Assembly: GCA_037178625.1 (NCBI GenBank)
Contig: CM074145.1
Span: forward strand, 496,001-560,000
Source: Skeletonema tropicum
Lineage: Eukaryota; Bacillariophyta; Thalassiosirophyceae; Thalassiosirales; Thalassiosiraceae
DNA: 64,000 nt
Direction of reading: 5' to 3'
This document shows, in pieces, positions 1 to 52,551 of the stretch. Numbering within the stretch: position 1 is the first letter of the stretch; each line of letters starts with the position of its first letter. Made by a program: the position numbers and the translations under genes. A model generated the notes under the pieces. That model ran no database searches. It saw only the letters and a list, made by a program, of their open reading frames with translations, and was not told the DNA's origin.

Positions 1-2189
1 CACTATTTGAGGTATTTCCGACAGCAGCAGTAGATGTGTCAAACTTCATACTTGACCATCTGGAACATTTCAGCGTTGAATTGCTGAGGGAACATTTTAA
101 CACAACAATGATAAAGCAACTAAATGAAGAGGTGAAAACCAACATCAACTTTACCGAAGACTCAGAAGAATTTCAACTGGTTGACAGATATCTCAAAAAT
201 CCACCATCATACTCAACGGTTGGGAGGTGGGTCGGATACCTTGGTTTCAAACGAGAGGTGTCAAAGAAATGCTACTACGTTGATGGCCATGAGTATGCCG
301 AACAGATAGAGCATCGGTCTCGGTTAACAGACGAATATCTATCAGTGCTTGAACCACGATCTCATCGATGGGTTCATTTGTCACAGACCGAATTTGACGA
401 TTTGAAAACAGCGCTCGAAGATGACAAAGATGGCGAGAAGGCGAAGGACATGTTAGATAAGGTTGCTTATAAGTTCAAGGGAGTTGATGAAAAAGTATAC
501 TTTGAGTTTCATGTGGACAAACACGTGCGTCTGCAGAAGATTGCAAACGATAAGTATGGAGCATTTGGAGGAAGAGTAAGCATAAGAAAGAAAGCTGAAG
601 ACAAACCTGTCATCATCTTTGGCCAGGATGAGGCTATTTTTAATGCTTTTCTGTCGCGGACTCACCAGTGGGTTGATCCGAATGGAAGGAGGGCAATTAT
701 GCCGAAGACTGTTGGTGCTGGTATCATGATATCTGCGTTTCAATCGAGAGAATTGGGTTGGGGCATTCCTATCACCGAAGATCAGCTGAAGGAGATTAAT
801 GCTGCTAGAGCCAATCAAGAATACTTCGACAAGGCAGCGGCAATTGCCGTAAATGGTAACACAAAAAAGCAACCACTTGAATCGTCACCTGGGATTCTTA
901 AGTTTGCATACGGGAAGAACGGGTACTGGACAGGGAACCACACGATCCTGCAAACGGAAGATATAATAGATTGCGTAAAAGTAATACTCGGAGATGAGTA
1001 TGAATATGTCTTTCTTTTTGATTCGAGCAGTGGTCATGCAAAGAAGCGTGTTGACGGTCTTGATGCAAAGGAAATGAACAAGAATTGGCACTCGACACCA
1101 TCGCAAGCTAGGAACACCAAAATTGAACGGCAGGAGGAATTTGTCGGGCCATACTACGATGCATCCAATCCAGCAATGGTGACTATCGGTCAAGAACAAA
1201 CGATGAACTTCACCAGTGAAGATGTCGGCCCATTTTGGCTGACAGCAGAGGAACGTGAAAGACAACGGCACGACCGAGAGGTTGAAATACCAGAAGACAA
1301 GAGGAAAGAGCGACATAAGGTGAAGAAAGAGCTGATATCGGAGCTGATGGACACCGAGTGGGGGAAAAAGGAAGGAGAAATAAGGTTATGGAAGATGACA
1401 CATGCTGAGCTAGCAAAAATGGCGCAAGCGTCTAGTATCGATATCAAAATAACACCTACCACCAAAATGATATATGGATGGGAGGGCAAGGGTAAGGGAC
1501 TTCTGCAGATTGCGTATGAACGTGGCTGGATCGATATAGCAACCTTCAGAAAGGGCAGCTACCAAGTGATGAAGTATGATGATGAGGGTAACTTGGTTCC
1601 TGAGCTTTCCCTCCGGCATTTGCTTGCAAACTGCACGGATTTTTTGTCTGAACAAAGCCAACTCGAATATGTTTGTGAATCTTTGGGAGTAAGAGCCTTG
1701 ATTACAACAAAGTACCATGCTGAATACGCTGGTGAGGGTGTCGAATACTCTTGGGGATTCTCCAAAGCTCTCTACCGAAGACATCCATTAGCTCAAAAGA
1801 AAACGACTGCTGATTTCCTTGCATTGGTCGACAAGTGTATTTCAAGAGAGGTTCTCACTGTGGATCTCATTCGTAAGTTCAGTGCCAGGGCAAGAGGTTA
1901 CATGGAGACATATAAGATGTTGGAGATTGAGGCAAAGAATACCAAGGAGACAGAAGGTAATTCAAGTGAGGATGCACCCATTCCGCACAAGAGAATTGAA
2001 ACGCTGAAGAAGGTTTTGAAATGTCATCGTGCTGCTATTGACTTTGACAAATCTTTCATTATGAAAACTGTCTACGCAAAAGACTTTGATTTCAAGAATG
2101 ATTTGCTCAAGAAGGAAGAGAAGCTCAACTTTAGTCTCAGAGTAAAACGAGAGAATACGAAGGTGGAAGCGACGGCAAAGAAGAAATAA
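1..2189 (+). CDS. DDE transposase-like protein (IS630/Tc1/mariner-type fold), 5' partial
   Basis: The frame is open through the left window edge, and the first possible in-window start (position 36) is a GTG inside that frame, so the N-terminus lies outside. Three acidic positions fit a DDE nuclease: QDEAIF (about nt 624-640), FLFDSSSGH (about 1012-1040) and GEGVEYSWG (about 1732-1758). The flanking text (a PDAL/MN-like stretch after the second Asp; a HAEY....YSWG..K..YRR block around the third acid) resembles the DDE proteins common in fungal and oomycete transposons. A basic tail ends in KKK before TAA. No internal stop or frameshift is seen, so it may be active or recently active. No inverted repeats were found downstream; the left end is outside the window. 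Family assignment is inference from motifs. Confidence 0.7.
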   Translation, partial: LFEVFPTAAVDVSNFILDHLEHFSVELLREHFNTTMIKQLNEEVKTNINFTEDSEEFQLVDRYLKNPPSYSTVGRWVGYLGFKREVSKKCYYVDGHEYAEQIEHRSRLTDEYLSVLEPRSHRWVHLSQTEFDDLKTALEDDKDGEKAKDMLDKVAYKFKGVDEKVYFEFHVDKHVRLQKIANDKYGAFGGRVSIRKKAEDKPVIIFGQDEAIFNAFLSRTHQWVDPNGRRAIMPKTVGAGIMISAFQSRELGWGIPITEDQLKEINAARANQEYFDKAAAIAVNGNTKKQPLESSPGILKFAYGKNGYWTGNHTILQTEDIIDCVKVILGDEYEYVFLFDSSSGHAKKRVDGLDAKEMNKNWHSTPSQARNTKIERQEEFVGPYYDASNPAMVTIGQEQTMNFTSEDVGPFWLTAEERERQRHDREVEIPEDKRKERHKVKKELISELMDTEWGKKEGEIRLWKMTHAELAKMAQASSIDIKITPTTKMIYGWEGKGKGLLQIAYERGWIDIATFRKGSYQVMKYDDEGNLVPELSLRHLLANCTDFLSEQSQLEYVCESLGVRALITTKYHAEYAGEGVEYSWGFSKALYRRHPLAQKKTTADFLALVDKCISREVLTVDLIRKFSARARGYMETYKMLEIEAKNTKETEGNSSEDAPIPHKRIETLKKVLKCHRAAIDFDKSFIMKTVYAKDFDFKNDLLKKEEKLNFSLRVKRENTKVEATAKKK

Positions 2190-3205
2190 ACATAGGACAA
2201 TGTTCATTTATGTCTCTTGGTGGAATATGGCATACGAGGCATTATTTACCATGGTCCGGTTGTTGTTCGCAATTGATAAAGACGGAACTTTTACGGGTAG
2301 AGTAGCTCCCCAGTTAAGGGGCTTTCAGTACGTTTGTACGTAGGAATAAAAATTCTGCGATTATCCGCCAAGATTTGCTAACAGCTGTAGAGATCCAGCG
2401 ATTTCATTCACGGTCGAACTGTATCATCTGGTAGAGAAGCAAGGTATGAATGCAAAGCGGGACCCGCTCAAACGCCTCGCTCCTCGGCTTGCAGGTTGCT
2501 GGCGCTGGCCGGCGCTCGCAAGCTGCCTGCATGCTGCCAGCTTGCTGCTTGCCAGGGATAAAAGAATCTGCTTGCTATCTAGTTATGTAGCTGGAAGATG
2601 CTGACTTTGACTTGATTGCTGTGAGGTGTCAAGGCCACTCGCTCCGTATCGTATTCATTTAGCTTGCTATCCTTGCACTATCACTATTATCCTTGACAGA
2701 CTGCAACAATAGTGCTACAAACAACGCCACTGCGGAGTTATTTCATGCGGAGGAGGAGGAGGAGGAGGAGACAGCGGTGAAATTGAGCAGGGAATCATCA
2801 CCTCTGAAAATAGCACCTCTGAAAATACCGACGGCCTGCCATAACGCGGCCTGCGGCATCAGGGGGCATCTTCCCTGAACGAATGCTCTGATGATGGACA
2901 AAGATGTCATATGGTTGTGCAGGATAATGAGTACATTCAATATGGTATGGGTATGGTATTACTCTTCTACTTCTAGAGTTAAGCTATCCATTACCATTTT
3001 CATTATCCATGATAAAAAAGATGTGAAGATTACAAATAACGTGCGACAATTTTTGAGGGTTAGCAGACTGACAATAAGGATTATCGTATCATGACTATAT
3101 TAACGATACTGACTCGGGACGTCGCTTTGGCTTTGGCAATATAATCAATTGACACAACACTCCAATAAAAAACGCTAAGAAGTTCAAAATCACAAATCAA
3201 ACATA
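2190..3205. other. Intergenic, no gene supported
   Basis: About 1 kb between the transposase-like gene and the convergent secreted-protein gene. It holds a GC-rich stretch (about 2450-2560) with repeated gctgc/cttgc words and a short GAG-rich run (about 2750-2770). The only structured item is one copy of a ~71-bp repeat (2944-3014), listed separately. The short ORFs here lack recognisable motifs. Confidence 0.6.
2944..3014 (+). repeat. Direct repeat, copy 1
   Basis: This ~71-bp block is repeated in the same orientation at 4652-4729. Shared words include ggtatgggta, ttactcttctacttctagag, atccattaccatt and ttatccatgataa. The copies differ by a few substitutions and small insertions. Together they bracket the chitin-binding-like gene. 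Confidence 0.85.
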
Positions 3206-4381
3206 TCACCACACGTCTGTGATCGATCCAAGTGAAAAACATTCTTTTCCCACTTCGAGGCGCGAATCGCAAAGCATCACTTTTGCATTGAACAAATCAA
3301 GGCGTGCAGTGTAAAAGTCACGTCCATTTTTGTCTTTCAGGTAAATGGAGTTAATATCTCGGTGGGATTCCTCCCAATGGAAATATCCGTTTCCATCAAA
3401 CTCGGTCCACTGATTCTTCCCATCTGATTGCCAGTATTCACCATCATATCCTTCATTCAGACCCGTGATATCACGCGCATCAACACCGAACCGATTACGT
3501 TTGTACCAGACACTGATGGTGCCAGTAACTTTGCATTTACCATTCACTGCAGCACAATAGAGCACAGTTTTGTCATTGAAGTCAAATCGTGTCATCGCGC
3601 CCTCACGCCCGTTCTTGTCCTCGAGATAAATTACATTGGCATGACGGCGCGTTTCTTTCCATTTAAGCACATGGCCACCGACAAGCTCTTGGGTCCATTC
3701 AGTGTTGTAAGACATCCAGTGAACGCCATTGTCAACGCGCAATTCAACCACGTCATCGGCTTCAAAGGCTTCAGTCTGTTTCCTCACATTCTGATCGATA
3801 TCGATATCAGTGTCGACGTCGACTTCGACATCCACATCCATGGCTGCCAGTTGAAGCTCAAGCTCAAACGCAAGCGCATCATCAATGTAGCTCTCTTTGG
3901 CCGTGATTGCAGGCTCGTCTTCGTCATCAATATTGCCATCGATAGTATTGGTATTGTTCCACATCCAATCATCATCCTCATTGTCATTGGGCTCATCAAT
4001 CAAGTCCAACACGTGAACGTCAACTTGCACTTCGGTCTCAAGGTCTAGGTCTCGGTCCAGGCCTTCTTCCGTCGCATTGTTGCTGTTGCCACGCAACATA
4101 CCTGTAATAATCATGCCACTGCAGTGCTCATGGGAAGATCCGCACCAGCCCCACTTCGAGCAGCATTTTCCATCCGAGCAGATGCCATTTCCACGATTGC
4201 CATTGCCACATGTGCCGGAGCTGGAGGGGACTCCTGCGGTGATTGCAGCATCAATCGCGTCAGGAGATACCGCAGCCGCAGCATCGCAATGTTCCATAGA
4301 GGTGGAAGCAAAAAGTGCAAGGAGGGTTAAAGCGGCGCCGGCGCTCTTCTTGATCTGGATCTTGATGTTGATTGGAGACAT
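3206..4381 (-). CDS. Secreted protein with hevein-type chitin-binding domain and two tandem C-terminal repeats
   Basis: The start is the ATG at 4381, which begins a signal peptide (MSPINIKIQIKKSAGAALTL, then a hydrophobic core). An upstream in-frame start at 4453 would bury that signal. After cleavage near AAAA comes a hevein-like chitin-binding type 1 module, with cysteines in CGNGNRG...C....CCSKWGWCG....C (about residues 60-90). A strongly acidic linker (Asp/Glu/Asn/Val repeats) follows. The C-terminal ~150 residues hold two copies of one module: W-T-Q/E-x..HWK/EE(T/S)xRxxNxIYLxDKNGR....RxDxxxxxVxxC. The protein is about 391 residues and likely acts outside the cell or in the wall, where it could bind chitin; diatoms of several groups make chitin. 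The repeat module is not one I recognise. The gene runs tail-to-tail with the transposase-like gene. Confidence 0.75.
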   Translation of the reverse strand: MSPINIKIQIKKSAGAALTLLALFASTSMEHCDAAAAVSPDAIDAAITAGVPSSSGTCGNGNRGNGICSDGKCCSKWGWCGSSHEHCSGMIITGMLRGNSNNATEEGLDRDLDLETEVQVDVHVLDLIDEPNDNEDDDWMWNNTNTIDGNIDDEDEPAITAKESYIDDALAFELELQLAAMDVDVEVDVDTDIDIDQNVRKQTEAFEADDVVELRVDNGVHWMSYNTEWTQELVGGHVLKWKETRRHANVIYLEDKNGREGAMTRFDFNDKTVLYCAAVNGKCKVTGTISVWYKRNRFGVDARDITGLNEGYDGEYWQSDGKNQWTEFDGNGYFHWEESHRDINSIYLKDKNGRDFYTARLDLFNAKVMLCDSRLEVGKECFSLGSITDVW

Positions 4382-4651
4382 GGTGTAATGTTCAAGTACA
4401 AGTGCAAGTGATAGTGCTGTGTTTAGAGTTAGAATGCTAGCAAGTGCTGTCAATGATTTTTGTTGTTTTGCTAGTTTGTTTCTGAAATAATGAGATGACT
4501 AATGAGTGAGCTTCCAGTGGAACAGCAAAGCATCAGTCTTGATCTTGATCGTTATTGTACTCTTGCTCTTGCTGCACGACTGATAAATTATTCTGCCAGT
4601 CGTCTGTCGTGCGTGGGGAAAAGCTTTCCTTAGGAGAGCGAGACCCAAATT

Positions 4652-4729
4652 GGTATGGGTAGATATTATTACTCTTCTACTTCTAGAGAGAGTTTAGCCA
4701 TCCATTACCATTACCGTTATCCATGATAA
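4652..4729 (+). repeat. Direct repeat, copy 2
   Basis: Second copy of the block at 2944-3014, in the same orientation and about 270 bp upstream of the chitin-binding-like start codon. It may mark an old duplication or insertion boundary around that gene. Confidence 0.85.
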
Positions 4730-4883
4730 TGCTCACTGTGTCCAACACATAGAAGGCGATGCATTGACTACGGCTGTGCAGAGATGCGATTGTACGACAC
4801 ATACATACACAACAAGAATTCAAGCTACCACAATTATTGCGTTTTATCATTTATTCGTCCGAGCATTATTTGAGAAACTTCAT

Positions 4884-5774
4884 TCACCAATCATCCAACA
4901 CGACAGTTGCCTTTCCCTCCCTCGCCTTCCAAAGTCCCGCACCCCTCTCCCTCACAGCCGCAGCCATAACCTCCATTACCATCTCACATCCCGCACGAGC
5001 ACATTCCAAAACTTCTCCAAACGCCTCTGCCCCACCCGATAATCGACTTTCACATTGAGATAATACCACCGTCCCCCTTTGAGGCATGGTTGCTACAGGA
5101 AGGTAGATTGTATCACTTGTCCCTCCACCACCACTATTGTTATTCCCACCACCACCACCAGAAGACCCGGTAGCAGCTTGAATCTCCCTCCGATTCAAAT
5201 CAACAACAATCTCATCACTCCCCCCTGCATTCCACCGTCCAGCCGAACAAGCACACACCATATCTTTCAAAGGGATACCCGCATCGATCAATGCAAGTGT
5301 ACATGCATTAATTGCCGCCTCAAGACGTCCCCCATCATCCGCCAATACCATTACAGTCACTGATATTTTCGACTTGGGATATAAATGCAGTAATATCGAT
5401 GCCGACATGGCCTTTTGGAGTAGATGAGACTGTTCAATCAATCGTCGATCACTTGTTGGATTCGTCGATCGTCGATCTCCCGGTGGAGCAAATGGAGCCG
5501 TTCTCATTGTCACTTCTAACGTTGCTCTATCTGGTAATTCCTCCGTACGTCTTCCTACGTCACATGGACCACGGACCGTGCATAGAACTTGGGTTAGGCC
5601 CATGGTGACCATGGCGCTGCCCGAGCAGGCACTTGATGGGAGCGCAGAGCCGCAATCGGTTGTGGAGGGGAGGGCGCCGAGATGGCAGGTCATGTGGCGG
5701 ATTTCGTTGGGGCGGCGTCCGTCGGAGCGGAGGTGGATTAGGGAGAGGATGTCGGTTCGTCGCAGTGATGTCAT
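4884..5774 (-). CDS. RRP41: Exosome complex RNase PH-like subunit RRP41 (EXOSC4)
   Basis: A 296-residue intronless ORF with the RNase PH fold of the exosome ring. The start MTSLRRTDILSLIHLRSDGR matches the family opening, where the Arg-rich pattern R.DGR.P.EIR follows. Next come the GSA...MG.T.VLC.V.GP block (about residues 46-70), the TMRTAPFAP segment, and the central S..I.V.V.VL..DGG....AI.A..LAL.DAGIP..D.V.AC.AG region. The C-terminal half has an in-frame Gly/Asn-rich insertion (SSGGGGGNNNSGGGGT) between the D-L-N-R.E and LPVA.MPQ..TVVL strands, typical of low-complexity loops in diatom proteins. In eukaryotes this subunit helps form the catalytically inert RNA-threading channel of the nuclear and cytoplasmic exosome. 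RRP41 rather than RRP46/MTR3 is chosen from the opening and the DGG..A..NA..LAL motif. Confidence 0.85.
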   Translation of the reverse strand: MTSLRRTDILSLIHLRSDGRRPNEIRHMTCHLGALPSTTDCGSALPSSACSGSAMVTMGLTQVLCTVRGPCDVGRRTEELPDRATLEVTMRTAPFAPPGDRRSTNPTSDRRLIEQSHLLQKAMSASILLHLYPKSKISVTVMVLADDGGRLEAAINACTLALIDAGIPLKDMVCACSAGRWNAGGSDEIVVDLNRREIQAATGSSGGGGGNNNSGGGGTSDTIYLPVATMPQRGTVVLSQCESRLSGGAEAFGEVLECARAGCEMVMEVMAAAVRERGAGLWKAREGKATVVLDDW

Positions 5775-14158: not shown

Positions 14159-16300
14159 GTAGATAGATAGATAGATTATTTTAGTCACTACTCTCTAGAC
14201 ACCGGTGTCAGTAGAGAAAGAAGAATTTAAACCTGGAGGGGCTCGGGCTGGTCCCGAAGACGCCTGTGCAGCCTGCTGGGAACTAACTGGTCGACGGATG
14301 TGGAAAGCGAACGCCTTGGTGCAGGCAAGGCCAAACTGTTGAAGGAAGTGGATCTGAGGGGTGGGTGCTGTGTAGGAGTGGCCATAAAATCGCTGGTGGG
14401 CTGGTTTGGAAGCAGACCATGAGGAATTGGCAAGGGGAAGGATGCCATGGGGGGCTGAGCTTTGGAGTGAGTCGCGGTACATCTTCGCTGCTTGAGGCTT
14501 GTTGGCTGAAAAGGAGAGTGGTTGGATGGGGTCGTCGCCGAATAGGAATCTGCGGAACATTGGGCCTAAGCCGCCATACGGGCATATTGCCCACATTTGA
14601 AGGTGTTTGGCATCGGAATGGAGGGTGCGAAGGACGTCTTCTCTCGACATTGTGTCGGCGGTGACAGTACAATTCCCCATTGTCGTGAACTTCCTCTTCT
14701 CTGCTTTTTGTAGACATCGTTCAGCATTGGCTGTAAATGAAGGAATGTCTTCAATAGCAGAGCTAGGAGGAGGGTCAGGGCAATGGTCAATTGTGATGTC
14801 AGCACCACAAACGGCGAATTGAGACGGTGGGAGGTTGGAATCCCCAAGGGTGTGGTTGGGCTGATACTCGATGTCGAATGGTCGGAGAAGGGGTTGCTGG
14901 GCGATGTGTTGGGGGGCTTCGGTTTGGACGATGGATGAGGGGCTGATGATTCCAGCGGTGGGAAGGAACGCTGGAGGGCTGGTTGAAGACCGTGTTCATT
15001 GATGTAGTTATGAGCGGCTTTCTTGCTGATGCGAGTGCAGCGGAAGTGGTGATGGCCGTATAGATGTCGTGGGTGGTGCCGCATTTACAAACAGGAGCTG
15101 AAGCTGGGTGGTAGATGGGGAGGACTAGTTTGCGTTTGAGCATGACAGTGAAGTCGAAGTTGCTGAGCCGATGTTTAACGTTGCTACGAGACATGTGGAC
15201 AAGTGTGTAGGACATGTGGGTGGAGAGGACCCCTGGGAGGATGTGGCAGAGATTTTCAGGAGTGCTGGCGTAGATGAGGGCGGTGGTTGTGGCGTTGGTG
15301 TGGAGTCGAAGGCGGTGTCTGGCACTGTTGGTGGACACTTTTGTTAAGAGGTGGTTCATGCGTTGGTCATGTGGGACACGGTGGGAGACGGCGATGGAAG
15401 CGATGGTGGGGAGGGCATGTTGGAACCGCTGGAGAGTGAGGGAGGAAGGATTGGAGGCAAGGTTGTAGAGGGAGCTGATGGAAGTGGAAGAAGGAAGTTG
15501 GTAGTTAGGGACTTCGGCATGAAAAGGGATGCCTTGCCCTGCAAAGTTGGTAGCTTTGGTCATGGTGAGGACGAAGTCGGGGATAGCTCTGGCTCCTGGT
15601 CGGTAGAGTCCTAGGCCCCCGGCTGGAATGCCTCCTTGGGCGATGTACAAGGAGTGGGATGGAAATGGTAGCGAGGCGTCGAGATTAAGGAGTTGTTTGA
15701 AGAAGTTGGACATGAGATGGTTGGTGGCATCGATGAGAGGCCCTCCCCAGCCTTCCCAGTTGAATCCTGACATGTCGTAGTCAAGGGGCAGGTGGTGGAG
15801 GACGTCATAGCCGAGGAGGTGCGGCAGTTTGTGGATGGTGCATTGGATGAAGAGGCGAAGGCGGGTTTGGAGGTTGGACACAGAAGAAGTGAGGGTGTGG
15901 GCATCGGCGGTGGCAGCAGCGACACGCTCAAAGCAGAATTCTCTTGCAAACTTGGCTGATCCTACTGCTACTGGGGCTCCGAGGAGGCGGTAGCCCTCTA
16001 CTATTTCGACAGGGATGGGCGGATCGGTGGGATTGGAAGCTTTGGAGATGGAGAAATTGTTGATGGCACGTTGGAGGGACTCGGCAAGGGCTGGATTGGT
16101 GCGACGAATAGACGGTATGGGAGATGAACCGTTAGTGGAAGTAAAAGGATGCGGGTTTTGAAGGAGTTGAGGCGGCAGCCTCTGGGAGGGGCAAGCTCGT
16201 TTAGTTTGGTGAAGAAGAAGTCGAAATCGACTAGAGGGATTACATTACTGTTGTCATCGACGAAGGCAGTGATGATGGAGACAGATCGTAAGTAGATGAT
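14159..16300 (-). pseudogene. 5'-truncated non-LTR retrotransposon: RT C-terminus to 3' end, frameshifted
   Basis: Reading the minus strand from 16300, the catalytic palm motif TAFVDDN (about 16268-16250) is followed by NELAPPRGCRLNSFKTRIL, the usual G...N..KT region after it. A frame change leads to a long post-RT region (15881-14799; e.g. HKLPHLLGYDVLHHLPLDYD), then a zinc-knuckle-like C-K-C-G...H....C whose second half (GHHHFRC) lies in another frame (15084 onward). Further frame changes end at SFSTDTGV near 14195. The 3' end finishes in a short (TCTA)n tract on the minus strand (14159-14175). Motifs before FVDD are missing, so the copy is truncated. At least three frameshifts make it non-functional. 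Confidence 0.8.
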
Positions 16301-19065: not shown

Positions 19066-19867
19066 TTGATGCTGATGCAGAAACAGCCATATCATGACAG
19101 GAACGCCACAGAGAGTGACAGTGATGTTGATGTGGGCCAGTCGCGTTGGCGCCACAAACTCGAGTATCTGAAAGATATGATTATAGGCGTCGACCTTCTC
19201 ATTGTAGCAGCCGTAGCTAGCATTATCACTTTCGGTGTGAGCCGTTTAGGAAGCGAAAGCGAGTGGATGTCCTTTATATCTGCTTCGAAGCCCGCCACAA
19301 GCATGTTGGGAGCCTTCTACTCTTTTGCACTCGTGTTCCGCACCAACATTTGGTAAGTTCAATTGTATCTTTGCAGTCATAGGTTGTTGTTGTACAGAGT
19401 CCTCATTCATTATGCTGTGCTCGCTGTCGTTGCAGTTATTCACGCTGGTGGGAAGGCAGGATTCTATGGGGATCAATGATTGTTTGTTCGATCCGTATTG
19501 CCCGGCAGGCCCATCTCTGGATCAAGGAGCCAGCGCTCGTGCACAGACTAAGCTGTCTAGCTGTCATCTTTGCCTATTGCAGCAAAGCACAGCTTAGAGG
19601 GGCTGGTGTAGAAGATGTCACGGAGAGTGGTGCCGAACTTCTTGAGAAGGGAGTTATTTCGCAGGAAGAGCTGGATATGATTTCTAGGCAAAGTGGATGG
19701 CAAGCGTTCTATTGCATTGATGCAATGAGAGCCGTAGTTTCGTCAGGACTTGAAGGTGAAGGTAAAGGAGATTCGAAACATGACGGGTGGAAGAACAATG
19801 CAGCTCAGACTGCTATGGAGGAAACCATATGCAAACTTGCTGACGGTATCGGAGGATGCATCAGAGT

Positions 19868-20702
19868 GTTAGAAATGATAAAGTCACTGACTTTATCATT
19901 TCTAACATAATGCTGTTAGAAATGATAAAGTCACTGTCCCAGTAATCGATTACTGGGACAGTGACTTTATCATTTCTAACATAATGCAAGTCACCAGTTC
20001 GAGTCCAGCGAGGTAAAAAGCCTCTATTTCCCACCTAGAGAGAGGTATGGATAAGAGGAAATACTACTGCGGGTAGGCGGACTAGGAGATAAAGATCTAG
20101 CTAGAGGAATACTAGTACTGTAATTCCCACTAGATGTAGGTGGACGCTGCAAGGTGTGACCTGCGCTAGCCTACTCCTGTCTCCAGTAATCGACTAGAGA
20201 TGGCATGGACTTACGGTCCTGTCAAGGCTCGTAATCCTGTCATCAGTCTAGGAACGGACTGGTGACTTGCATTATGTTAGAAATGATAAAGTCACTGTCC
20301 CAGTAATGGATTACTGGGACAGTGACTTTATCATTTCTAACATAATGCAAGTCACCAGTCCGTTCCTAGACTGATGACAGGATTACGAGCCTTGACAGGA
20401 CCGTAAGTCCATGCCATCTCTAGTCGATTACTGGAGACAGGAGTAGGCTAGCGCAGGTCACACCTTGCAGCGTCCACCTACATCTAGTGGGAATTACAGT
20501 ACTAGTATTCCTCTAGCTAGATCTTTATCTCCTACTCCGCCTACCCGCAGTAGTATTTCCTCTTATCCATACCTCTCTCTAGGTGGGAAATAGAGGCTTT
20601 TTACCTCGCTGGACTCGAACTGGTGACTTGCATTATGTTAGAAATGATAAAGTCACTGTCCCAGTAATCGATTACTGGGACAGTGACTTTATCATTTCTA
20701 AC
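19868..20702. mobile_element. Nested palindromic insertion element in bestrophin copy 1
   Basis: From 19915 to 20702 the DNA is a 788-bp near-perfect palindrome centred at 20308/20309. It is built from three 66-bp hairpin blocks P (19915-19980, 20276-20341, 20637-20702; each starts gttagaaatgataaagtcac and is itself self-complementary) separated by two 295-bp arms in inverted orientation (19981-20275 and 20342-20636). Each arm also begins and ends with inverted copies of ataatgcaagtcaccagt. A shortened 39-bp P block (19868-19906), missing its central 27 bp, precedes the palindrome. The word cagagtg flanks both sides (19862-19868 and 20704-20710), and the paralogue shows the uninterrupted site. 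No ORF of note inside. Arms differ at very few positions, so the structure is young or kept uniform. Confidence 0.95.
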
Positions 20703-20843
20703 ACAGAGTGAGAAGTACTGGCCTGCCTGTGGCATACGATGACCACCACGGGCGCAATCTTCTTCACTGCGGCGTGTTTGGCGTGGGCTCCTGGAGCGGG
20801 GTTTTACAATCCTATCGTTGTGCTCATTGTTTATATTACTTGT

Positions 20844-49912: not shown

Positions 49913-51394
49913 ATGACCAATCATTGGCTAAAACCTGTTCGGGATGGTCCAACGGCAACACCAATCAGTCGTCCACTACTGTGGAAACAGCCATATCGTG
50001 AGAGAAACGGCGCTTCGACTTCGACCGACTCCACAAAGTCAAAAACTGTATCTGTAAATGATGCTTATGCGGGCCAGTGGATTCACAAACTCGAGTATCT
50101 GAAAGAAGTGATTATAGGCGTCGACCTTTTCATTGTAGTAACCGTAGCGAGCATGATCACTTTCGGTGTGAGGCTTTTAGGAAGTGAGTGGCTATCCTTT
50201 ATATCTGATTCAAAGCCCGCCATTGGCACGTTGGGTGCATTCTACTCTTTTGCACTTGTGTTCCGCACCAACATTTGGTAAGTTCACAATTGTATCTTTG
50301 ATCTTTGCAGTCAAAGGTTTTGCAGAGTCCTCATTCATTATGCTGTGCTCGTTGCAGTTATTCACGCTGGTGGGAGGGCAGGGTGCTATGGGGATCAATG
50401 ATTGTTTGTTCGATCCGTATTGCCCAGCAGGCCCATCTCTGGATCAAGGAGCCGGCGCTAGTACATAGACTAAGCTGTCTAGCTATCATCTTTGCCTATT
50501 GCTGCAAAGCACAGCTTAGAGGGGCTGGTGTAGAAGATGTTACTGAGGGTGGTGCCGAACTTCTTGAGAAGGGAGTTATTTCGCAGGAAGAGCTGGATAT
50601 GATTTCTAGGCAAAGTGGATGGCAACCGTACTATTGCATCGATGCAATGAGAGCCGTAGTTTCGTCAGGACTTGAAGCGAATTCGAAGCATGAGGGGTGG
50701 AAGAATAATGCAGCTCAGACTGCTATGGAGGAAACCATATGCAAACTTGCTGACGGTATCGGAGGATGCATCAGAGTGAGAAGTACTGGCCTGCCTGCGG
50801 CATACGATGACATCTTGAACACCACGGGCTCAATCTTCTTCACTGCGGCGTGTTTGGCGTGGGCTCCTGGAGCGGGATTTTACAATCCTATCGTTGTGCT
50901 CATTGTTTACGTTATTGTGAAGATGATCATTGGCGTTGGCACGGACATGGTAAGATATTGATATCGAACATGAAATATATTTTTTTCATCGTCATCAATT
51001 TTGTTATATGCTTACTCTTGCTCACAATGGCTTTTTTAACTCTCACATCATACTTATCAACATCACTCTCACTTCGCAGGAAGATCCATTTGGACATGAC
51101 GAATCCGACTTGCCTCTCGAGAAGTTCTGTCAAGAGATTGACAAGCAAATCACTGCTATTGATGAAAGAGCAAAGCTCATCACGTATGATCTTGCACGTG
51201 GACCTGCTGCTCACAACCCTGCTCAGAGTCAGAGGCGGTCATCGTTCAGGTTCAGCACCAGCACCAGCACCAGCACTAGCACGCACCCAAACTCATCATC
51301 TTCCTCTTCTGATCAGGGAAGTCTTGCAACAAGTGAAGACGATGATATTGAAAGCGGACGAATGCCATCTGAAACAGATCGATTGATTTCTTGA
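49913..51394 (+). CDS. Bestrophin-family anion channel, intact copy, three exons
   Basis: Exons 49913-50277, 50358-50949 and 51080-51394; introns of 80 and 130 nt with gtaag...cag ends. The joined frame is 423 residues. Family features in order: a hydrophobic first span (IIGVDLFIVVTVASMITFGV), FRTNICYSRWWEGRVLWGSMI across intron 1, VHRLSCLAIIFAYCCKAQLRG, a helical middle with GWKNNAAQTAMEETI, spans SIFFTAACLAWAPGAGFYNP and IVVLIVYVIVKMIIGVG, and EDPFGHDESDLPLEKFCQEI, the PFG.D..DLPL element of bestrophins. The Ser/Thr-rich tail is probably cytosolic. Algal bestrophins have been linked to anion or bicarbonate transport at thylakoid or other membranes; which membrane applies here is not visible. 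Closely related to the pseudogene at 18877-21449. Confidence 0.92.
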
Positions 51395-51475
51395 GCCCGG
51401 GAGTCCCACCAGACGTAGTTCAAAATTAATGTTACACATTGATAAGTCTTCTGTTAGATCATCAAGTATATTATT
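51388..51475 (+). repeat. Direct repeat, left of retroelement fragment (overlaps bestrophin stop)
   Basis: Shares tcttgag, cccaccagacgta, aaaatt..tgtta and tagatcatcaagtatatta with 52689-52753. The left copy has an ~18-nt extra segment. Confidence 0.8.
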
Positions 51476-52551
51476 ATGAGGGATCGAAGGCAGTGTTGAA
51501 AATTGGGGAAAAGTGGATAACAGCGCGAATGAAGAAGCAGCTTTACAACGCCAGACGTGGACCAATCCTACGGGAGTATATCAAACGTCGACATAACTGG
51601 TCAGACGGACAGTTTGATGGGGTGCATTGGCACACAATTGGAGCAGTGAGGAGACGAAGTGATCTGAGTAAACAGAGGTTTACATGCAAATTGATGCATG
51701 GCCTCTTACCTGTCAATCATGTCAGACGACATGTCACCTCGGTTTCCCAATGCCCTGGGTGCCCGTGTGGAGATGAAACAATAGCGCACGTCTTCAAATG
51801 TCCCCACCCACGGATGGTAGCGAAGCGTCAAGAAATCATAGCAGCTTTAAGAAAGAAAGGACTCAGAAAATTATCAAGGCAAATACTTCGGACTGTTGCC
51901 GATATCATGGAACAGTATGCAGAAGGAGAAGATATACTTCCCGCAACCCGACATCCAGCAGTCCGTGCAGCAGTGCAGGCACAGAGTGAGTTGGGGTCGT
52001 GGGAAGATTTCTTCCGAGGATATCTAGTGAAGGAGTGGAAAGAGGCGTTCCAAGACACCCACACTAGCGATGCCGATATGCAATTCGATCAATTTCAACA
52101 AATGATTTGGTTTGACATTGCATGGCCTCAGTGGATGGAACGTAACAGGGTGGCTAAGGGCCGGGGAAGTAATGCGGATCAATTGGAAAGTGAATTGCTG
52201 ACAAGGAAACTAGTGTGGTACCATAAACATCGTCATGAGCTATTACCAGCACATCAACGAGAGATGGCGAAAATGCAATTACATGAGATTTTGCGAATGA
52301 GACCAGCTACAAGACGATTATGGCTTCACCATATCGAAGAGGCGGTAAAGGCATGGGAACGTGATAAGTACACACTATTGCCAGGGCAGCGACTCATCAG
52401 TGATTACTTTCCAGAAATCGAATCGGCGCCACCACAACCTCCACCACCTCGCAATATTGTGAGAGAAGCTAGGGAGCAAGCAGACAGCGAAGTGTTACGC
52501 CTTGAACCAAACCAAGTGAGAATAGATGAAGTTTTCGACCCAGTCGAGTAA
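51439..52551 (+). pseudogene. 5'-truncated retroelement C-terminal (post-RT) ORF
   Basis: An open frame of 370 codons whose first codon is TTG with a TAA close upstream; the first ATG is at 51529. The protein has a zinc-knuckle-like CPGCPCGDETIAHVFKC and long helical segments such as SWEDFFRGYLVKEW and PQWMERNRVAKG. The same order (C..C.C....H...C, then a W-rich helical region, then a QW..RN..KG-like element) occurs after the RNase H domain in the retroelement at 59264-64000. No RT or RNase H motif is present here, so this looks like a fragment of a related element, yet the frame is uninterrupted. Flanking ~65-88-bp direct repeats support an inserted segment. Selection for a host role cannot be excluded. 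Confidence 0.6.

Follow-up and report, generated by a model that had tools for sequence, protein, structure and literature searches.

An inserted palindrome and its empty site

The window, that is, the whole stretch of 64,000 nucleotides of Skeletonema tropicum DNA that was analysed, carries at 19867-20703 an insertion with the layout deleted P, TAATGC, P, A, P, A', P. P is a palindrome of 68 bp with zero spacer, A is a non-coding arm of 293 bp and A' is the same arm inverted. The features, in order along the window, are as follows.

19862-19866, plus strand: left target-site duplication CAGAG; the same 5-mer stands at 20704-20708
19867-19907, no strand: centrally deleted P, a 41-bp hairpin with 20-bp arms and a 1-nt loop (inverted-repeat and module analysis)
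19908-19913, plus strand: TAATGC, interpreted as what is left of an arm A reduced by deletion to 6 nt, as A begins TAATGC
19914-19981, no strand: P1, perfect 68-bp palindrome TGTTAG...AATC/GATT...CTAACA (palindrome scan)
19982-20274, plus strand: arm A, with TAATGCAAGTCACCAGT inverted at its ends (inverted-repeat analysis)
20183-20193, plus strand: CCAGTAATCGA, a copy of the P centre within A, where a short derivative rejoins (sequence reading, arm alignment)
20275-20342, no strand: P2, the central palindrome shared by both halves, its middle reading GG in place of CG (sequence reading)
20343-20635, minus strand: arm A, with the single difference C101G (arm alignment)
20636-20703, no strand: P3, perfect 68-bp palindrome (palindrome scan)
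20704-20708, plus strand: right target-site duplication CAGAG, the same 5-mer as the left flank
50772-50776, plus strand: empty target site CAGAG, present once, in a bestrophin paralogue (paralogue comparison)

An earlier note on this DNA had described a long, nearly exact palindrome whose paired positions sum to 40617, and this is borne out: the inverted arms (19914-20307 and 20310-20703) are 394 nt each around a 2-nt centre. Its block and arm lengths of 66 and 295 bp need correction to 68 and 293 bp, at the coordinates given above, but the near absence of mismatches was rightly seen, the departures from symmetry being the one arm difference and the GG for CG of the middle block. Also confirmed are the inverted ends within each arm and the fourth, centrally deleted block at the left edge. 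Only two of the three P blocks appear as perfect zero-spacer palindromes of at least 26 bp in the window, and there are no others. The 429-bp unit P-A-P has inverted ends of 88 nt (98%) and folds with a z-score of -22.9, none of 100 shuffles folding as well. No stop-to-stop frame lying wholly or nearly so inside the insert exceeds 57 aa, and the frames of 175 and 102 aa enter from the host flanks. Tandem Repeats Finder returned no rows over 19867-20703.

The paralogue does hold the exact empty site, with CAGAG once. The flanking repeat had been given as CAGAGTG; its first five bases are the target duplication, whereas TG is the first two bases of the element. The frame of the paralogue is that of a bestrophin relative (Pfam Bestrophin_2, E 3.1e-10), and it weakly matches bestrophins of known structure (best E 0.0019). 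The description of the site as a bestrophin exon thus holds for the frame of the paralogue, but the insert-bearing copy is also frame-shifted: relative to the paralogue it has a small frame-shifting deletion to the right of the insert, so this gene copy was broken before the insertion or has been since. Elsewhere in the window, long frames at 51430-52551 (plus strand) and 14195-16244 (minus strand) look retroelement-like by eye and have no Pfam match at E 0.001. A carboxypeptidase frame in the window has its best organism-labelled match in Skeletonema menzelii (81%), behind six other matches with higher scores.

Copies of the family and their target duplications

All searches concerned a single genome, the S. 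tropicum assembly of 78,392,479 bases in 125 contigs, which is described as assembled from PacBio CLR data, with short-read polishing (PMC11032307). Exact half-ends of P number 165 genome-wide (80 + 85; reversed control 0). There are 106 P-A junctions with up to three mismatches, and among the best 100 of the 106 in mismatch order 95 are exact, four of these belonging to one tandem repeat on C11. Further copies are therefore found, and the possibility raised earlier that none existed anywhere else in the genome is excluded. The loci fetched for comparison (numbered with L) comprise every place among the matches listed for the A and P-A queries, together with four finds of P only (L032, L061-L063). 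They contain, with the query included, 37 full-length arms, of which 15 are identical to the plus arm of the window, 8 have one differing alignment column, 9 have two and 5 have more. With P-A junctions mostly exact and many arms identical to that of the window, the insertion appears to be very young, one of the options named in the earlier note, while the near-identity of copies may be inflated by the short-read polishing of a CLR assembly.

The unit P-A-P also occurs alone (L017, L018 and L019), a possibility raised in the earlier note, at a size of 429 bp and not 427: L017 has 429 bp between copies of GTTGC, and L019 has 433 bp between copies of GCCTT. L063 has GAATT on both sides of a P to which another half P is added. 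An older form of P has TGTTGAAGAATGATAAAGTC in place of TGTTAGAAATGATAAAGTC, altered in both halves, and occurs as an exact perfect palindrome in L036. Perfect zero-spacer palindromes of at least 48 bp number 85 in 325,296 bases (63 centred as in P, 20 as in Q, which is described below, and 2 others), a total that covers the window and the fetched loci, near-duplicates included, and that is not a genome-wide rate as these loci were picked for P or Q. Five copies (L024, L037, L041, L043 and L045) end at the P centre, which would be expected if palindromes break centrally.

Several loci have neighbourhoods of their own. Four near-identical copies of P-partial A-half P at C11:2082140-2100698 (L029-L031), at intervals of 7.04, 5.65 and 5.65 kb, belong to a larger tandem repeat; a location in an rRNA spacer was considered and set aside, as Rfam found nothing in L029. 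At L062:1222-1255 half of P stands in a repeat whose other copy, in L058, resembles the empty site by eye, and the junction is consistent with deletion between TCGA repeats. At L043:2564-2593 (C19, around 1589463) half of a P, broken at the centre, gives way directly to TTAGGG-type repeats that meet CCCTAA head to head, resembling a healed or fused chromosome end inside a chromosome. L045:901-992 is a perfect 92-bp palindrome of AGGGTAAGAATC repeats with no relation to P or Q.

Target duplications were compared at the other copies, as the earlier note had proposed. A script divided the fetched loci into 58 clusters. Both canonical ends were present in 27 of these; the other 31, which are truncated, have a changed end or run beyond the fetched stretch, are outside the count. 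Identical 5-mers flank 22 of the 27 places (21 by script, and L022 by reading, with TTCAT on both sides), where chance would give 1 in 1024 per place. The five without a duplication are L010, L012, L032 and two L029 copies of one tandem repeat; L012 sits inside an exact palindrome of 4,740 bp, and L032 is a lone P truncated on one side. L015, L018 and L024, each with one end altered, have matching 5-mers by eye. Old lone P blocks, also judged by eye, have no clear 5-bp duplication. Whole chains of several units lie within duplications at L014, L016, L021, L034 and L064.

Chains, a short derivative and a second family

The longest P-A chain is 1,849 bp (L014). Neighbouring arms are joined 44 times at 20 loci, in direct orientation in 28 cases and in inverted orientation in 16, and internal orders and joins differ among these chains. 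In 10 of the 44 the arms are connected by a single whole palindrome (nine exact and the one-base variant of the window), in 5 by a whole palindrome with additional sequence, and in 29 by a partial palindrome or something else. Seven of the ten clean single-palindrome joins are direct and three inverted. L012, where two P stand side by side, is outside the 44; there an exact 4,740-bp palindrome centred on P/P, flanks included, occupies positions 550-5289 (C9), and it is suspected to be a fold-back assembly artefact or a very recent inverted duplication.

Could the window palindrome itself be an assembly product, a single P-A-P unit folded out by chimeric CLR reads? The assembly is of the CLR kind, and the palindrome of L012 could be just such an artefact. 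The window arms and the central block, however, differ at single bases, and chains at 20 loci have varied internal orders and joins, many with outer 5-bp duplications. Such an origin is thus unlikely at the window locus, and as an account of the structure we regard it as highly improbable.

Variants shared or not shared within a chain bear on how chains grow. Two oppositely oriented arms in L035 have C137T and T138G in common, changes absent from all other aligned arms, and this points to copying inside the chain. The two arms of L012 share G119A, but within the suspected artefact palindrome. The window, L015, L016 and L039 each have chains whose arms differ from one another, which weakens growth from a single unit.

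In a short derivative, half of P continues into A from around position 196-216, with the junction at CCAGTAATCGA, a sequence present in both the P centre and A. The derivative is found in the chains of L010, L014, L016, L025, L034 and L035, and in L043 as P-short-half P. The same derivative in several chains could mean that chaining comes before insertion. Ten copies of it lack a base (T201-), and nine of these carry C213T; the copy without C213T is in L034, so that crossover points probably differ. The T201-/C213T form also occurs in the old-type copy L038 and may accordingly be an old inherited lineage rather than the outcome of repeated switching.

A scan of the fetched loci for palindromes revealed Q, a 74-bp palindrome that starts TGTTGATGAATGC and has 155 half-ends genome-wide at up to two mismatches. 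Q palindromes lie at L049:1238-1311 and L041:564-637, and ten Q places (L064-L073), hand-picked from 100 among the matches listed, were fetched for Q and its arm B. Arm B is 294 bp long and forms direct and inverted chains of up to 1,962 bp (L064). Both canonical ends are present at six Q places, and all six have identical flanking 5-mers (L064-L068 and L073). A and B align colinearly over two stretches: at their left ends 21 of 25 nt agree, and around the copy of the palindrome centre that lies inside the arm 39 of 53 nt do. In both arms a degenerate half palindrome comes after CATCTCTAG, and a short derivative of like kind exists in both families. The interiors of P and Q differ almost completely, yet each is still a perfect palindrome, and between older P and Q the only common part by eye is the outer TGTTGAwGAATG. 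Comparison of the P/A and Q/B families thus shows the layout to be conserved but not the sequence of the palindrome. A genome search with AACATAATGKAAGTC for a third family sharing the inner end gave no matches.

These chains and drifting palindromes could also be read as the legacy of a hairpin-ended replicon, single-stranded or linear copies of which would self-prime at P and be inserted as inverted dimers; rolling-hairpin self-priming is the mechanism of parvoviruses. P-A-P-A'-P is the inverted dimer expected, with one palindrome shared, the palindromes remain perfect despite sequence change, and the L035 variants are common to opposite arms. Rolling-hairpin replication alone, however, gives inverted joins, and direct joins outnumber these by 28 to 16. 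An exact search of IMG/VR with one 23-mer returned nothing, and viral origin was also set aside as an identity for the family. Descent from such a replicon is quite improbable.

Mobilization, proposed upkeep of the palindromes and known systems

An autonomous partner was sought through shared ends. BTGTTAGAAATGATAAAG gave 54 genome matches and no convincing element; three of its new places were fetched, and each proved to be a fragment of the family or a P with half a P attached, with no longer element among them. The six genome matches to TGTTAGAAATGATB, of which the two examined lie in known family copies, gave no convincing partner, and neither did those to TGTTGAWGAATGK (137 + 58, against 24 + 15 for the reversed control). 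Many of the latter, among 100 matches listed, fall in a tandem repeat of about 2.24 kb. This repeat contains TGTTGATGAATGG and occurs at C8:3292259-3305715 (near a contig end), at C22:1458145-1492894, and on C34 and C44. Matches to the integrase domain (rve) number 79 in the genome, many in long open frames, and none is linked to the family ends. An integrase-bearing element with a frame of 1336 aa was rejected as the partner, a reverse transcriptase being visible by eye in L074 and any LTR ends in L075 being putative.

The block TAATGnAAGTCrCyAGTTCGAGyCC resembles, by eye, what we take to be the 3' half of a tRNA and a pol III B box. A tRNA gene or tRNA-derived element was rejected, as ARAGORN found no tRNA in the window and the 29 Rfam matches at E up to 1 include no tRNA model. 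The Rfam matches to miRNAs were likewise dismissed, being below gathering scores and arising from perfect hairpins.

The insertion is accompanied by a 5-bp duplication, its ends are TGTT...AACA, the units form chains, and the halves of each palindrome are identical. One could see in this a TRIM-like non-autonomous LTR retrotransposon, with P and Q as very short palindromic LTRs, A and B as the internal parts, lone P as solo LTRs and chains formed by LTR-LTR recombination. The TG...CA ends and 5-bp duplications suit such an element, as do the direct chains in which neighbours share a single P (7 of the 10 clean joins), the lone P-like blocks, the conserved 25-bp block just inside the left palindrome, in the position of a primer-binding site, and the integrase-domain matches just mentioned. 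Inside either palindrome, however, the first 25 nt contain no TGG, the usual primer site for a tRNA 3' end. The opposite end of the arm, GACTTGCATTA before P and GACTTTCATTA before Q, is no polypurine tract; it repeats the same 16-17 nt in inverted form, which makes an inverted repeat of the transposon type. Moreover, 16 of the 44 joins are inverted, and no reason is known for LTRs to be perfect palindromes. A retrotransposon of this kind is rather unlikely.

The reading that we prefer is that P/A and Q/B are probably two related families of non-autonomous transposons, moved by a transposase or integrase acting in trans and chained through their palindromes. They are termed MITE-like on account of the short non-coding unit, terminal inverted repeats and a duplication fixed at 5 bp. 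The basic unit would be a palindrome, an arm of 293 or 294 bp and a second palindrome, moved by an enzyme supplied from elsewhere; judging from the ends and the duplication, that enzyme is perhaps an integrase-type DDE transposase of the Ginger/LTR kind. A palindromic end may serve as left or right end and, in either orientation, as a point of crossover or template switching. With its ends symmetric in this way, a unit can grow into direct and inverted chains through whole or partial palindromes, and the chains may arise by recombination or template switching at P, before or after insertion.

Palindromes that are perfect and have no spacer are commonly regarded as unstable. Hairpin repair or self-priming might copy one half of the palindrome onto the other, and such copying would keep the palindrome perfect as its sequence drifts, a view suggested by P, older P and Q. 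It is possible, if doubtful, that the palindrome is a self-renewing working module, blind to orientation, one half of which is rewritten in each cycle, and that chains are mobile as wholes. If true, the elements would form a class of transposons whose palindromes are propagated by the element itself. With about 320 half-sites genome-wide in two related families, and 83 perfect P or Q palindromes of at least 48 bp in the fetched loci, the birth, upkeep and recombination of palindromes become testable in a diatom, which also offers a series of naturally occurring chains bounded on both sides by the target duplication.

Searches of the open-access literature found no named family with this layout, in agreement with the earlier note. 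Its term foldback element holds as an analogy only. Galileo and foldback elements, as described in PMC4168063, also have long inverted ends of variable structure and mostly non-autonomous copies, but their duplications are of 7-8 bp and their inverted repeats are long, some with tandem units, whereas the ends here are short perfect palindromes and not long inverted repeats of tandem units. Ginger2/TDD elements are given TGTNR termini, inverted repeats of about 50-180 bp and duplications of 4 bp, or of 5 bp in TDD-4 and TDD-5 (PMC2836005). TGTNR, the terminal pattern given there for Ginger and Gypsy elements, fits both TGTTA and TGTTG, the termini found here, and the 88-nt inverted repeats are a further likeness. 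The duplication has 5 bp as in TDD; the RTATAY target preference given in PMC2836005 is not seen here, ATATC alone among the duplicated 5-mers coming near. That account makes, as far as consulted, no mention of palindromic ends.

Chains of non-autonomous elements are known elsewhere. Coral CMITEs form tandem chains and have internal parts better conserved between families than their terminal repeats, as here; unlike here, they have piggyBac ends, and palindromic termini are unmentioned in the part of the account consulted (PMC2872659). Rice MITE multimers, as cited in PMC10664404, also have MITEs side by side, whereas the neighbours here are joined through whole or partial shared palindromes. 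What we describe is a MITE-like element with self-palindromic ends, and the nearest known layout is that of the pithovirus repeats, palindromic chains of the form (M1-M2)1-8-M1 that are likewise MITE-like, that are more alike within one region than between regions and whose autonomous partner is reported there as not found (PMC10664404). In those repeats M1 and M2 are both palindromic, with internal parts of 37 bp and a putative TA duplication, according to the same source. Here, by contrast, P has zero spacer, the arm occurs in both orientations, the duplications are of 5 bp, and the host is a eukaryotic nuclear genome.
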